In this document: one piece after another, positions 1,227 to 13,585 of the stretch
Position numbering within the stretch: the stretch's first letter is position 1
Layout of the letters: each line of letters opens with the position of its first letter
Origin: Candidatus Gottesmanbacteria bacterium
Lineage (GTDB): Bacteria > Patescibacteriota > Microgenomatia > UBA10105
NCBI GenBank assembly: GCA_023245415.1
Contig: JAHFKJ010000010.1
Span: 1 to 47,238, forward strand
DNA length: 47,238 nt
Reading direction: 5' to 3'
The notes under the pieces: model-generated
Databases searched by the model: none
What the model was told of the DNA's origin: nothing
Seen by the model: the letters and a program-made list of their open reading frames with translations, nothing else
Position numbers and translations under genes: made by a program

Positions 1227-1408
1227 TCTATTTAATAGTTACACTTACAACTCCTAAAATCAATAACTATTTTTGATACAATGCGGGGAAAAGAGGTTGT
1301 TTTTCGCGCATGTGAGAGCGGGGTAAGTAAAACTAAAAATAAATTCCTTGCTCAAGCGAAAGACGAGAAAATAGCGCGCAAAAAATAACTGAAGTGAGGT
1401 CGCGTTTA

Positions 1409-1428
1409 CCCTGAGCGAAGTCGAAGGG
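1409..1428. repeat. Dispersed palindrome-like element, single copy
   Basis: CCCTGAGCGAAGTCGAAGGG has complementary ends (CCCT/AGGG, and TTCGAC against the GAAGTCGAA core) and so can form a small hairpin. It is a variant of the unit in the tandem array 38 bp away and of the element inside alaS. From memory, such CCTGAGC..GAAGG words occur in many environmental bacterial genomes; that is recalled, not checked here. Confidence 0.65.
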
Positions 1429-1465
1429 ATGCGGCGAGTTGACTACTTTGAAATTCAGTTCTAAT

Positions 1466-1561
1466 CCTTCGGCAAGCTCAGGACAAGTTCCTTCGGCAAG
1501 CTCAGGACAAGTTCCTTCGGCAAGCTCAGGACAAGTTCCTTCGGCAAGCTCAGGACAAGCT
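1466..1561. repeat. Tandem array, 4 x 24-nt unit
   Basis: Four head-to-tail copies of the 24-nt unit CCTTCGGCAAGCTCAGG + ACAAGTT begin at 1466, 1490, 1514 and 1538. They are identical except for the last two bases of copy four (CT for TT). The 17-nt core is the reverse complement of the element found inside alaS at 45222-45238. The identity of the copies suggests recent amplification. In the minus-strand frame the array reads TCPELAEG four times. Confidence 0.95.
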
Positions 1562-1632
1562 TTTTTATAAATCTCGACCAATAGAAAAAAATTAACACGC
1601 GGTTTATCTCGTCCATCTAACAGATGTAAATG

Positions 1633-5622: not shown

Positions 5623-6108
5623 TTATTTAGTTATTTTTTTAACTCTCACCTTTTCGTTTTTCTTCATATCTTTAACTCTCACCTTTTTGGCAGAAGATTG
5701 TTTTTCTTTTTTTACATTAGATTTCTTATCAATAACAACTTCCTCTGCTTCTACGATTTTTTCGACCAATTCAAATCTTACTTGCGGACCATTATTACCT
5801 TCACTTGGTGCTGACCGAATAATTCGCGTATATCCACCAGGTCGTAACTTAAACAACTCACCCAGCGCTTTTAACTTTCTTGCAACTTTAATATCCCCAC
5901 ATTCCTGTATTAAACGCTTATAACTAGCCAAATCTTTTTTCTTAGCCAGAGTAATCAGTTGTTCGAGTTGTGGTCGTACCGCATCTGCTTTAGCGCGTGA
6001 TGTGGTGATAGCATTGTATGTAACGACCGCTTTGATTATGTTGCGAAACAATTGTTTCCGCTCGTTGGTGTTACGGGATAATTTTTTCCCAAAAATCCGC
6101 TTTTTCAT
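5623..6108 (-). CDS. rplQ: 50S ribosomal protein L17 with basic C-terminal extension
   Basis: 161 aa. Residues 1-~115 are normal bL17 (MKKRIFGKKLSRNTNERKQLFRN, TTSRAKADAVRPQLEQLITLAK, GGYTRIIRS). A ~45-residue Lys-rich tail follows, containing two KVRVK words encoded by a direct repeat (AACTCTCACCTTTT on the plus strand near 5640 and 5673). The ATG overlaps rpoA's TGA (ATGA), indicating translational coupling. The tail may add rRNA contacts; this is inferred. Confidence 0.96.
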   Translation of the reverse strand: MKKRIFGKKLSRNTNERKQLFRNIIKAVVTYNAITTSRAKADAVRPQLEQLITLAKKKDLASYKRLIQECGDIKVARKLKALGELFKLRPGGYTRIIRSAPSEGNNGPQVRFELVEKIVEAEEVVIDKKSNVKKEKQSSAKKVRVKDMKKNEKVRVKKITK

Positions 6109-7022
6109 ACTGATAAAGCTACCCCTTTGTCGCGCAATTTCTCTTCGATAATCGTCAGTGATTTACCTCCTAAATTTTTGAGCTTCAGTAACTCCTGTCT
6201 TGGAGTACCCAAAAGTTGCCCTACCGTCTCAATTCCACCATTAGCTAAAGAATTGGCTATTCGAGTCGGAATATCCAACTCTTCAATCCTCATCTTGAGA
6301 ATTTCATCTGATACTGTTGGTGTAACTGCCACTCCCTCTGCAATTTCTGCTTTTGGCTCATATACTTGTAAGAAATACGACACCAATATTTTGGCAGATT
6401 CTTCCAAAGCAGATTCAGCGGTAACTGATCCGTCAGTCCAAATTTCTATAACCAATTTATCTAAATTGGTCATCCGTCCCACGCGAGTCGCCTCAACTTT
6501 ATAATTCACACGACGTATTGCATTGTAGATACTGTCAACCATTATGATGCCTATTTCTTCGCTTTTGCGTTGATCTGCAGTTTCGTAACCATAACCGGTT
6601 TTTGCAGTAAACTCGACATCTAACTTCGTTTTTTTGTCAGAGAGCGTCGCCAAATAAAGATCAGGATTAACGATTGTTACTCCAGATGGAACCTCAATGT
6701 CTCCGGCAAATACTTCTGTAGAACCGCGCTTATTCAACTTAAGTTTTACAGGTTTATCATCACTTATCTGTAATCTTACCTTCTTGATATTAAGTATAAA
6801 TTCAACAATATCCTCTTTTAATCCAGTAAGAGTTGAAAATTGATGTTTAACTCCATCAATTTTTACACTCGTGATCGCCGCCCCTTTTATAGAGGTTAAA
6901 AGGACTCGCCGCAGACTTGTGCCGAGCGTCTGACCATATCCTTCCTCAAGAGGTTCAATGATAAATTTGCCGTAACCGGCAGTTACCTTTTCGGTTTTGA
7001 CTTTAAAATGTGGTTCACGCAT
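6105..7022 (-). CDS. rpoA: RNA polymerase subunit alpha
   Basis: 305 aa. The N-terminal dimerisation domain (FIIEPLEEGYGQTLGTSLRRVLLTSI..GAAITSVKIDGV) is followed by a hinge and the C-terminal HhH domain (LDIPTRIANSLANGGIETVGQLL..LLKLKNLGGKSLTIIEEKL), which in other bacteria contacts UP-element DNA and activators. The full C-terminal domain is kept despite the small genome. Its Shine-Dalgarno AAAGGAGG is 47 nt from the ATG with a hairpin in between (see separate entry). Confidence 0.98.
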   Translation of the reverse strand: MREPHFKVKTEKVTAGYGKFIIEPLEEGYGQTLGTSLRRVLLTSIKGAAITSVKIDGVKHQFSTLTGLKEDIVEFILNIKKVRLQISDDKPVKLKLNKRGSTEVFAGDIEVPSGVTIVNPDLYLATLSDKKTKLDVEFTAKTGYGYETADQRKSEEIGIIMVDSIYNAIRRVNYKVEATRVGRMTNLDKLVIEIWTDGSVTAESALEESAKILVSYFLQVYEPKAEIAEGVAVTPTVSDEILKMRIEELDIPTRIANSLANGGIETVGQLLGTPRQELLKLKNLGGKSLTIIEEKLRDKGVALSV

Positions 7023-7077
7023 ACAATTTTTTTTTGGAAATAAAACAATAACATTATTGAAATTTCCAACCTCCTTT
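7023..7077 (-). promoter_or_regulatory. rpoA leader: Shine-Dalgarno separated from ATG by a hairpin
   Basis: AAAGGAGG (7077-7070) is followed directly by a stem TTGGAAAT/ATTTCCAA (7069-7062 with 7041-7034), with an inner CAATA/TATTG stem, and then seven A's plus TTGT before the ATG at 7022. If the hairpin folds, the Shine-Dalgarno-to-ATG gap shrinks from ~47 to ~11 nt, a usable spacing. An RNA structure that decides rpoA translation is therefore likely. Confidence 0.6.
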
Positions 7078-7113
7078 AACTTGTGAATTTATAATTAGTA
7101 ATCATGTCTAGTG

Positions 7114-7734
7114 TTAACGCGAATAATATTCAACAATTAATTGTTCATTAATTTCTTCGGTAATATGAGTGCGATCCGGAATATGCAGCATTTTCCCAAC
7201 TGGCCCGACTCGTTCCAGCCAGTCAGGAAGGGCCGGTGGCTTTTCGGTAATTAGCTTGCTAACTGCAGGTATATCCATACCGCGCTTCGTCAGACTGACA
7301 ACATCGTCAATTTGCAACTGGTAAGAGGGTATATTTACTTTTTGATTATTAACGCAAACATGTCCATGAGTCACTATTTGTCGAGCTAAGTTCCGAGTAG
7401 GAGCAATAGACAAACGATACAAAATATTATCTAATCTTCGTTCTAACTGCTGCAATAAAACTTCCCCGGTATTTCCGGAAACTTTAAGCGCTTTTTCATA
7501 ATAATTGCGGAATTGTTTTTCTAAAACTCCGTAGATGCGTTTTGCTTTTTGCTTCTCTCGAAGCTGTAAACCAAAGTCTGACATTTTGCCTTTTCCGCGA
7601 TGACTGTGGGATCCAGGAATAATATTTAAGCGCTTAAGTAGCTGAGCGTGTGCATGACTTCCGGGTGTTTTAAGTCCGAGATCAACATGCTCTCTTCGCG
7701 CTAAACTGTTTTTTGGTCCAGTGTATCGTGCCAT
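7114..7734 (-). CDS. rpsD: 30S ribosomal protein S4
   Basis: 206 aa, standard uS4. The N-terminal segment lacks the zinc cysteines (MARYTGPKNSLARREH), so it is the zinc-free form. The S4 RNA-binding domain is clear (ERRLDNILYRLSIAPTRNLARQIVTHGHVCVNN..). It nucleates 30S assembly by binding 16S rRNA, and in other bacteria it represses the alpha operon by binding its mRNA. It lies between two structured spacers: a long hairpin upstream and the rpoA leader downstream. Confidence 0.98.
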   Translation of the reverse strand: MARYTGPKNSLARREHVDLGLKTPGSHAHAQLLKRLNIIPGSHSHRGKGKMSDFGLQLREKQKAKRIYGVLEKQFRNYYEKALKVSGNTGEVLLQQLERRLDNILYRLSIAPTRNLARQIVTHGHVCVNNQKVNIPSYQLQIDDVVSLTKRGMDIPAVSKLITEKPPALPDWLERVGPVGKMLHIPDRTHITEEINEQLIVEYYSR

Positions 7735-7751
7735 AATTAGTTAATAGATAT

Positions 7752-7832
7752 TAGTTAGTAGTTCACAGTTTAAAAAAAATAAATAGTAATTTTTCTACTA
7801 AAATCTTTAAACTATCAACTATGAGCTAACTA
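7752..7832 (-). promoter_or_regulatory. Long hairpin between rpsK and rpsD
   Basis: Arms at 7752-7774 and 7806-7832 match over 7+5+8 bases (TAGTTAG, TAGTT, AGTTTAAA), interrupted by a 4-nt bulge and a 3-nt internal loop. Inside lies a second stem TAGTA/TACTA. The 5' arm on the minus strand begins in the TAG stop codon of rpsK. It could be a terminator, a processing site or an S4 target; no U-tract follows directly. Confidence 0.65.
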
Positions 7833-8201
7833 CACTCTTCTTTTTTTCTTGGGTCTGACTCCGTTATGAGGCATAGGTGTCACATCAGCAATCATTATTA
7901 TATTGAGTCCCGCTGCTTTGAGTGCTCTAAGTGCTGCGTCTCTACCAGCGCCAGGCCCTTTGATAAATACCTCTACTTCTTTAAGTCCTTGGGCAACGGC
8001 TTTTTTGGCAGTGGCTTCAACTGCTGTCGTTGCCGCAAACGGAGTTGCCTTACGGGCACCTTTAAATCCTACTGCACCGCTTGATCCCCAGCAAATCGCA
8101 TTACCATTTTTATCAGTGATAGTTACGATTGTATTGTTAAAGGTCGCAGTTATATAAACTCGACCTGACTGATGAACTCGTTTAAGTTTTGTTTGCGTCA
8201 T
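7830..8201 (-). CDS. rpsK: 30S ribosomal protein S11
   Basis: 123 aa uS11. Typical sequence [45 protein letters not shown] and C-terminal [19 protein letters not shown] platform protein of the 30S subunit next to the mRNA exit. It starts two bases after rpsM's stop in the conserved S13-S11-S4 order. Confidence 0.98.
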
Positions 8202-8202
8202 A

Positions 8203-8619
8203 TTATTTTGCAGCCGGTTTTGCGGCCGGTGTATCCAATTTCACCCGATCTTCTTTTTTCATGGCTCCAATTGTTACGCGTTTTCCGCGTTTAGTCCGGG
8301 CGTTGGATCTGGTGCGTTGACCATGTACTGGCAATTTTTTAATGTGTCGAATACCCCGGTATGACCCTATCTCTTTGAGTAGTTTGATATTATTTTGAAC
8401 TTCTTCCCGCAGATCACCTTCGACTTTAAACAGTTTTTCAAGCGCTTTTTGAATACTGCTTGATTCATCGTCCGTTAAATCTTTAACTCGTTTACCAGGT
8501 GGAATTTTCACGACTTCCATAACTTTACGTACGTTATTCCTACCTATTCCATAGATATAAGTAAGTGCGATATCAATACGCTTTTGCGGTAATAAATCTA
8601 TTCCTGAAATTCGTACCAT
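8203..8619 (-). CDS. rpsM: 30S ribosomal protein S13
   Basis: 138 aa uS13 with the N-terminal [29 protein letters not shown], the HhH region and the basic [25 protein letters not shown] stretch that contacts the P-site tRNA. The C-terminus carries a short Ala/Pro/Lys extension ([12 protein letters not shown]). Separated from rpmJ by a 149-bp AT-rich spacer, so it may have its own promoter. Confidence 0.97.
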
Positions 8620-8768
8620 ATATTAAAATTTAATATTCTAATTTCGAAATCTGAAATAATTTCAAAACTCAAATAATTTAAAATGTTCTAGAATTTAGCT
8701 TCTAAAATTAGTTATAAGCTTCGTAAGTTAGATTTGGATTTTCCATTCTTGCATTATTGAAAAGATGG
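8620..8768. other. AT-rich spacer between rpmJ and rpsM
   Basis: 149 bp, very AT-rich, with several imperfect inverted repeats, for example AATTTAG-CTT-CTAAAATT near 8693-8710 and a GAAAT/ATTTC pair near 8645-8664. On the minus strand a TATAAC is a weak -10 candidate. No gene is seen. It may hold a promoter and leader for rpsM-rpsK. Confidence 0.4.
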
Positions 8769-8882
8769 TTATCCTTGTCTTTGCTTATGTTTTGGATTAT
8801 CACAAATAATCATGACATGTCCATTGCGATTTACAATCTTACATTTGCGACATCGGATACGAACTGACGCTTGAACTTTCAT
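8769..8882 (-). CDS. rpmJ: 50S ribosomal protein L36
   Basis: 37 aa, absent from the ORF track because of its length. The translation from ATG at 8882 reads [20 protein letters not shown]..., ending [13 protein letters not shown]. It keeps the zinc ligands of the C+ form of bL36: CxxC, then C and H (C-x4-H). The gene begins 3 bp after infA ends, the usual infA-rpmJ-rpsM order. Confidence 0.96.
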
Positions 8883-8885
8883 AGT

Positions 8886-9104
8886 TTATTTCACTCGAAA
8901 TATAATTCTACCCCGAGTCATATCGTAAGGAGTCATTTCCATTTTCACTTTATCTCCTGGTAGAATCCTGATAAAATTAATTCGCATTTTTCCAGACAAA
9001 TGACACAATACAATTCTGCCATCTGGAATTTTTACCCGGAAAAGCGTATTTGGCAGTGCCTCGGAAACAATACCTTCAACTTCAAAAGATCCTTGATGTA
9101 CCAT
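8886..9104 (-). CDS. infA: Translation initiation factor IF-1
   Basis: 72 aa from the ATG at 9104 ([13 protein letters not shown]); the track starts two codons earlier at a TTG. A single S1/OB-fold domain with the conserved [15 protein letters not shown] and the C-terminal [14 protein letters not shown]. It binds the 30S A site during initiation. It follows map by 33 bp and precedes rpmJ. Confidence 0.97.
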
Positions 9105-9137
9105 CTTCAAAAGATCAATTCTACCTAAAATTTGCCT

Positions 9138-9896
9138 TTAGGTCAATATGATCGGCCCATTTTCACTAATTTGTACTGTTTGCTCGAAAAGACCTGATAA
9201 ACTGCCATCGGCGGTAACAAGCGACCAGTGATCATCATTTTTATACACAAGCTCTGGCTTTCCCAAGCAATAGATAACTTCAATAGCCAATACCATACCA
9301 ATTTCCAATTCAGGCGTCTTTTTCAGCGGTTTTGTCAGCAACCCGGGCACTTGCGGCGACTCATGCAATCTTTTGCCTACCCCATGACCTACAAGACTTG
9401 CAACTACACTGAATCCGGCAGATTCTATTGTATCTTGAATTGCGCAGGAAATGTGCCCAATGCGATTACCAAACTTTGCCTGACTAATAGCTTTTTTTAA
9501 AGCCTTTTCCCCAGTTTTAACAAAATTTTTCGTTTTACTATCAACCTCTAACTGTGAACTTTGAACTATCTTGGTCCAACTCGTATCTGTATGAAATCCT
9601 TGATACAAAAGTCCGACATCTAAACCAACCACATCTCCTTCCTGGAAAGGTTCGTCGGTTGGCACCCCGTGTACCACTCCATCGTTCGTTGAAATACAAG
9701 TAGCCCACTTATAGTCGCCAACGGTCATAAACGAAGGTGAACCACCAGCTACAGAGATTAATTTTTTGGTCAATTCATCAATCGCTAAAGGCACTACTCC
9801 TGGGTTGATTTCTTGCAACAACCGCTCTCGAATTGAATGCAGCTTCTTTCCGCCTGAGCGCATGATTTGTATTTCCTTCGGACTTTTAATGTGCAT
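9138..9896 (-). CDS. map: Methionine aminopeptidase type I
   Basis: 252 aa, normal for type Ia. Removes the N-terminal Met from new proteins. All metal ligands of the pita-bread fold are visible: NDGVVHG (His), GLDVG and FHTDTS (two Asp), GHGVGKRLHE (His), AIEVIY (Glu) and LFEQTV (Glu). There is no N-terminal zinc extension. Overlaps the upstream kinase gene by 11 bp. Confidence 0.97.
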   Translation of the reverse strand: MHIKSPKEIQIMRSGGKKLHSIRERLLQEINPGVVPLAIDELTKKLISVAGGSPSFMTVGDYKWATCISTNDGVVHGVPTDEPFQEGDVVGLDVGLLYQGFHTDTSWTKIVQSSQLEVDSKTKNFVKTGEKALKKAISQAKFGNRIGHISCAIQDTIESAGFSVVASLVGHGVGKRLHESPQVPGLLTKPLKKTPELEIGMVLAIEVIYCLGKPELVYKNDDHWSLVTADGSLSGLFEQTVQISENGPIILT

Positions 9897-13237: not shown

Positions 13238-13240
13238 ACT

Positions 13241-13585
13241 TTAAAAGTTTAAACCTCCTTCACGCAATCCTTCGGCCAATGCTTTAACTCTACCATGGTA
13301 CGCATAACCGCTGCGATCAAAAACCACTTTTGTAATCGGTATCTGCAAAGCTTTCTCGGCAATAAGCTTGCCCAATACTTTTGCTTTTGTAATTTTTTGT
13401 TTTTCCCCAATATTTTTGTCATTTATACCCAGCAACGTAATCCGTTTCTCGTCATTTATCAGTTGCACAAACAAGTGTTTTTGGGAACGATAAACCGACA
13501 AGCGCGGGATTTCGAAAGATCCGAATATTTTTGTCCGTATTCGTTTATGTCTTCTAGTTCTTAAGTTAATATGGTGTTTTTTCAT
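13241..13585 (-). CDS. rplR: 50S ribosomal protein L18
   Basis: 114 aa from the ATG at 13585 (MKKHHINLRTRRHKR); the track's start at 13606 would run into rplF's end, while 13585 leaves 7 bp after rplF's stop. uL18 with RLSVYRSQKHLFVQLIND, KAKVLGKLIAEKAL and the C-terminal FDRSGYAYHGRVKALAEGLREGGL. Binds 5S rRNA with L5. Confidence 0.95.
   Translation of the reverse strand: MKKHHINLRTRRHKRIRTKIFGSFEIPRLSVYRSQKHLFVQLINDEKRITLLGINDKNIGEKQKITKAKVLGKLIAEKALQIPITKVVFDRSGYAYHGRVKALAEGLREGGLNF

Follow-up and report, generated by a model that had tools for sequence, protein, structure and literature searches.

How does the ribosome find the start codon of a gene whose Shine-Dalgarno (SD) sequence lies some 50 nt upstream of it? 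This question is raised by the junction between rpsD and rpoA in a 47,238-nt stretch of DNA from a Candidatus Gottesmanbacteria bacterium (contig JAHFKJ010000010.1), the whole of which is referred to here as the window.

Anatomy of the rpsD-rpoA spacer

Both genes lie on the minus strand and can be firmly identified from their protein-family matches (Table 1). The spacer between the rpsD stop codon and the rpoA ATG (7022-7020) is 91 nt long. After the SD AAAGGAGG, a further 47 nt (7069-7023) precede the ATG, and this insert contains an 8-bp outer stem (7069-7062 paired with 7041-7034) enclosing a 5-bp inner stem (7059-7055 paired with 7050-7046). The two-stem hairpin is the minimum free energy (MFE) fold of the insert alone (-9.5 kcal/mol) and likewise in context, where the first four closing pairs of the outer stem have pair probabilities of 0.92-1.0. 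A preliminary description of the locus, made from the sequence letters, had given the same geometry, with 11 nt left between the hairpin and the ATG, and it proved exact in both the sequence and the MFE fold.

The pairing energy of the far SD with the anti-SD is about -12.6 kcal/mol, versus +2.0 for the 16 nt proximal to the ATG. The canonical anti-SD GGATCACCTCCTT was found in the genome of the window, and the far SD is predicted to be 97% unpaired at 37 C. There is no in-frame start codon between the far SD and the rpoA ATG, nor further upstream after the previous stop. A missed start inside the spacer was rejected; an ATG in the hairpin is out of frame. An intrinsic terminator was also ruled out, because the stem is A+T-rich and, on the rpoA strand, runs into A residues where a terminator would have a run of U.

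Table 1. Features of the rpsD-rpoA junction and of the neighbouring rpsK-rpsD junction in the window.
Feature	Coordinates	Strand	Basis
rpoA, RNA polymerase alpha subunit, 305 aa, ATG start	6105..7022	-	NCBIfam NF003519, E=9.8e-100
A-rich residual linker, 11 nt, hairpin to ATG	7023..7033	-	sequence
Outer stem, 3' arm ATTTCCAA	7034..7041	-	MFE fold
Inner stem-loop CAATA-ATGT-TATTG	7046..7059	-	MFE fold
Outer stem, 5' arm TTGGAAAT, first base directly after SD	7062..7069	-	MFE fold
rpoA SD AAAGGAGG	7070..7077	-	sequence; pairing energy with anti-SD
rpsD (ribosomal protein S4), upstream cistron	7114..7734	-	NCBIfam NF003717, E=3.7e-67; stop codon 7116-7114
Second quasi-palindromic insert, rpsK-rpsD junction	7735..7829	-	MFE -24.6, z -4.4

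We also evaluated how often such a hairpin would be expected by chance. The whole 127-nt region is unexceptional, with a folding z of +0.2 against shuffles. The insert alone is more stable than 98.4% of dinucleotide shuffles (MFE p ~0.016), and its energy and placement are both matched by 0.65% of them. In other words, the window hairpin on its own is modestly above chance and makes a weak case; the strong evidence comes from the comparison across relatives.

The split layout in related genomes

For this comparison we used the order to which the window genome belongs, that of the Gottesmanbacteria-type Microgenomates, with names taken from the relatives' records. The sample contained rpoA in 26 genomes, and its start was readable in 25. 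A far SD was found at rpoA in 16 of these 25 genomes, being clear-cut in 14. In such split genomes the SD lies mostly at or near the rpsD stop, often overlapping it (TAAGGAGG), and is followed by an insert of 47-103 nt and then by the ATG. Each of the 16 inserts is predicted to fold as a single hairpin domain that begins 0-3 nt past the SD core and stops 2-16 nt short of the ATG, and the total predicted SD-ATG spacing that remains after folding is 3-17 nt (mean ~9.7 in the 16 genomes). The folding z of the inserts averages -3.46 (Stouffer -13.8), versus +0.19 for 32 equal-length pieces of neighbouring coding sequence. The spacing measure alone, counted as unpaired exterior bases, is unremarkable against shuffles (Fisher p 0.33). 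It is the stability, and the stability combined with the placement, that stand out, not the spacing alone.

The pairing energies show the same division as in the window. The far SDs of 14 of the 16 split genomes lie at -10.7 to -12.6 kcal/mol, versus +2.0 to -2.4 kcal/mol for the region near the ATG, and a GGAGG-like core is kept in the far SD of 14 of the 16 despite the turnover of the insert. Two cases (L020 and L022) are doubtful, with weaker far SDs (-5.7 and -7.1, respectively) and a weak near SD (-4.0 and -3.3). When folded in context, the inserts of L006, L020, L024 and L025 favour a fold other than the bridging one. In the other nine genomes an ordinary SD lies within ~10 nt of the ATG (-8.5 to -12.0 kcal/mol), preceded by a hairpin in two of them. 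Therefore, expression of rpoA in the order does not depend on the hairpin. Inspection of ~67 loci outside the order revealed no clear rpoA case.

The preliminary description had held that the SD is too far from the ATG in linear form and is brought to it by the hairpin. Computation agrees with this, the layout recurs across the order, and 14-16 of the 25 genomes keep a structured insert without a nearer SD, contrary to what the description had named as its refutation, an unstructured spacer or an SD nearer the ATG in relatives. We propose that the rpsD-rpoA spacer is probably, with a chance of about three in four, a hairpin-bridged (split) ribosome-binding site of the type represented by phage T4 genes 38 and 25.

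Enrichment at rpoA and similar layouts at other junctions

To see where else the layout occurs, we scanned the alpha, spc and S10 operons of 24 genomes with one automatic rule for a far SD plus a hairpin. The layout was found at rpoA in 12 of 24 cases and at other genes in 11 of 460 (Fisher p ~1e-11, with the relatedness of the genomes ignored). The other-gene cases include rpsD in L176 and adk in L179, L180 and L182; at the secY-adk junction of these three, an SD (AAAGGAG or AAGGAG) overlapping or adjoining the secY stop is followed by a hairpin and the ATG. Genome-wide counts covered 623 kb of the window genome (G000) together with 400 kb from each of G023 and G019, and are rough because they are based on simple ORF calls. 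A split layout was observed before rpsL in G023 (L114:17243-17319) and upstream of a thymidine-phosphorylase-like gene, named by eye, in G019 (L223:5463).

Other palindromic sequences were also observed in these operons. The second insert in Table 1, which also has a stop-hairpin-ATG layout, lies between the end of rpsK, where the SD (AGAAGAG) is weak, and the ATG of rpsD. The same arrangement is seen at this junction in L003 and L017, and comparable long inserts occur in L016, L020 and L022. In front of rpsE (13238-13258, minus strand), the SD AAGGAGG is 16 nt from the ATG with the small palindrome ACTTTTAAAGT between them, which is possibly a miniature of the split layout. In L176 (genome G017), long near-perfect palindromes fill many of the operon junctions; GTCATTGCGAG-type repeats are among them, and two of these palindromes have a common GGTAGTGAA...CTACTACC(C/T)GGT end. 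Elsewhere in the window, an ORF at 1333-1581 (minus strand) consists largely of CPELAEGT repeats and is probably not a gene but a tandem DNA repeat.

Further operon junctions in some genomes carry quasi-palindromes that have no clear SD. This introduces the possibility that quasi-palindromes land in junctions and are tolerated there, folding away with little harm, so that the SD is bridged by a device that was never selected. Such a reading shares the bridging step with the hairpin-bridged site and differs on why the hairpin is present, and the confidences in the two overlap. Similar quasi-palindromes at rpsK-rpsD, rpsM-rpsK, rpsC-rplP, rpsH-rplF, rplB-rpsS and other junctions of some genomes favour it, and given their presence at these other junctions, some of the inserts could be tolerated insertions, not selected devices. 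However, the strong enrichment at rpoA stands against it, as does the position of the hairpin at the order's rpoA, after the SD in 16 genomes and before it in two. We consider tolerated insertion rather unlikely as the general explanation, and the history of the inserts bears on it further.

Turnover of the insert sequences

On a tree of RpoA and S4, both families of the order include split genomes, and at least six changes of state are needed; in one genus, all seven of seven members are split. The insert sequences are mostly unalignable, even inside one genus, and no sequence or loop motif common to the inserts was found among the split genomes. That close relatives carry very different inserts, and that several genomes have none, is consistent with tolerated insertion. 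However, the closest pair, L024 and L025, points the other way. Their inserts (~78 nt) differ by two substitutions and one indel, and the third codon positions of their rpoA genes are 63% identical. Given that the insert is far more alike than the third positions, this suggests constraint on the insert.

The only alignable inserts are those of L017, L024 and L025, in which a double compensatory change was found in 0 of 24 pairs among three sequences only; in their consensus fold, part of the SD is paired with TTCT. The evidence that the fold is conserved therefore comes from unrelated inserts that close time after time, and not from covariation.

We also searched for REP- or MITE-like copies. 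The window insert is single copy in 623 kb of its own genome, a 401-nt query across the whole of G000 gave one match, and the insert of G023 is single copy in 400 kb of that genome. A dispersed mobile repeat was rejected as the origin of the window insert, because it is single copy in the sampled sequence. The unrepeated state of the G000 and G023 inserts in the sampled genome parts is also a point against tolerated insertion.

Alternative roles of the far SD and the hairpin

In family f17 (L072, L080, L084, L085, L087, L090-L092, L095 and L100), a TGnTAnAAT-like extended -10 sequence lies directly before the rpoA ATG and there is no SD, a layout suggesting that rpoA there has a promoter of its own and a leaderless mRNA. 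In family f5 (L032 and L075), a strong hairpin and then an A-rich linker separate the rpsD stop from the rpoA ATG, and outside the hairpin there is no SD.

It is conceivable that rpoA is reached without the far SD also in the window, by re-initiation from rpsD or on an mRNA that is leaderless or made from an internal promoter; the hairpin would then be an insulator, an mRNA stabiliser or a cleavage site. Many genes in the window genome have no recognisable SD, so that initiation may be able to do without one, and the layouts of the related family f17 and of f5 are in line with this. However, the GGAGG-like core of the far SD persists while the insert turns over, and no good -10 sequence was seen before the window ATG, judged by eye. 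We regard initiation without the far SD as unlikely.

The preliminary description had also suggested that the hairpin is a sensor, either of a bound protein such as S4 or of temperature. In a regulated switch, S4 or another ligand would stabilise or melt the hairpin and so turn rpoA translation on or off. The gene for S4 lies directly upstream, and in other bacteria S4 regulates its own synthesis (PMC10931766); L017, L024 and L025 have the alternative SD-TTCT pairing in common. However, the alpha cistron of E. coli escapes repression by S4 (PMC10931766), the inserts have no common sequence or loop motif, and an Rfam scan of 6000-9200 found no leader; two weak matches below the gathering score are located elsewhere. 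Given that there is neither a common motif nor an Rfam S4 leader, nothing points to S4 binding, and a switch of this kind is very improbable.

A thermosensor is less credible still. The stem is A-U-rich, as would suit one; however, the outer stem is predicted to be 0.80-1.0 formed from 4 to 65 C, and the SD is already free at 37 C. These predictions indicate that there is no thermosensor in the physiological range. In addition, melting would turn translation off, which is the opposite of the usual thermosensors.

Comparison with known systems and a proposed mechanism

To our knowledge, most documented hairpin-bridged SDs come from phage T4, two genes of which are the usual examples. A literature search on the term "split Shine-Dalgarno" found nothing. 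In T4 genes 38 and 25, a structure shortens the SD-AUG spacing from 22 to 5 nt and from 27 to 11 nt, respectively, and destabilising the structure leads to less initiation (PMC3014915, reviewing Nivinskas 1999 and Malys and Nivinskas 2009). Thus, the bridging mechanism works in principle. The likeness to the window is close, in that the SD is too far away in linear form, a hairpin lies between the SD and the AUG, and the residual spacing is 5 nt (gene 38) and 11 nt (gene 25) versus 11 nt in the window. Gene 25 is likewise preceded by an intercistronic junction, and its arrangement is conserved within one clade but missing from more distant phages (PMC3014915). In contrast to the T4 genes, the window case is chromosomal, concerns the essential rpoA of a CPR order and is known from sequence and predicted folds, and its inserts are longer (47-103 nt) and mostly unrelated between species.

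Another comparison is offered by the split ribosome-binding site of E. coli thrS, in which the SD remains adjacent to the start codon. There, a long hairpin is accommodated by the ribosome without unfolding (Sacerdot et al.; PMC3936740). The ribosome would likewise hold a long hairpin at rpoA; however, the part beyond the hairpin in thrS is single-stranded, and ribosome binding depends on it (PMC3936740).

For the hairpin-bridged site at rpoA, we infer that the ribosome uses the far SD. The 3' end of the 16S rRNA would pair with it just outside the hairpin, and the folded hairpin would be held as a side branch, leaving an SD-ATG path of ~11 nt, not 47 nt. The role of the hairpin would be steric; if so, its sequence would drift, and what is maintained would be the SD, the closed fold and the residual distance. 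Placed after the rpsD stop, the hairpin would also reduce run-through or re-initiation from rpsD, with rpoA initiated from its own SD, and the synthesis of the alpha subunit would thereby be set apart from that of the ribosomal proteins.

The E. coli alpha operon has the same gene order, rpsM-rpsK-rpsD-rpoA-rplQ, although its S4 operator lies at rpsM and takes the form of a pseudoknot instead of a hairpin between the rpoA SD and ATG. The E. coli alpha cistron is regulated apart from the flanking ribosomal-protein cistrons (PMC10931766). Given this separate regulation, a hairpin after rpsD together with rpoA's own SD would serve the same end, and the decoupling of rpoA from the ribosomal-protein cistrons is a plausible reason why the hairpin is kept. 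More tentatively, rpoA might have a clade-wide ribosome-binding site that is free of sequence and defined by its fold, with selection acting on the SD, the closed hairpin and the residual distance, plus uncoupling from the ribosomal-protein cistrons as the counterpart of rpoA independence in the E. coli alpha operon.

The case concerns an essential chromosomal gene in most of an order, with unrelated hairpins that close at the same places, and these genomes provide many natural experiments on the amount of structure that a 30S subunit can accept between an SD and a start codon. Gene finders and initiation models based on spacing would call such starts devoid of a ribosome-binding site. The arrangement also bears on how rpoA could escape the control of its ribosomal-protein operon.
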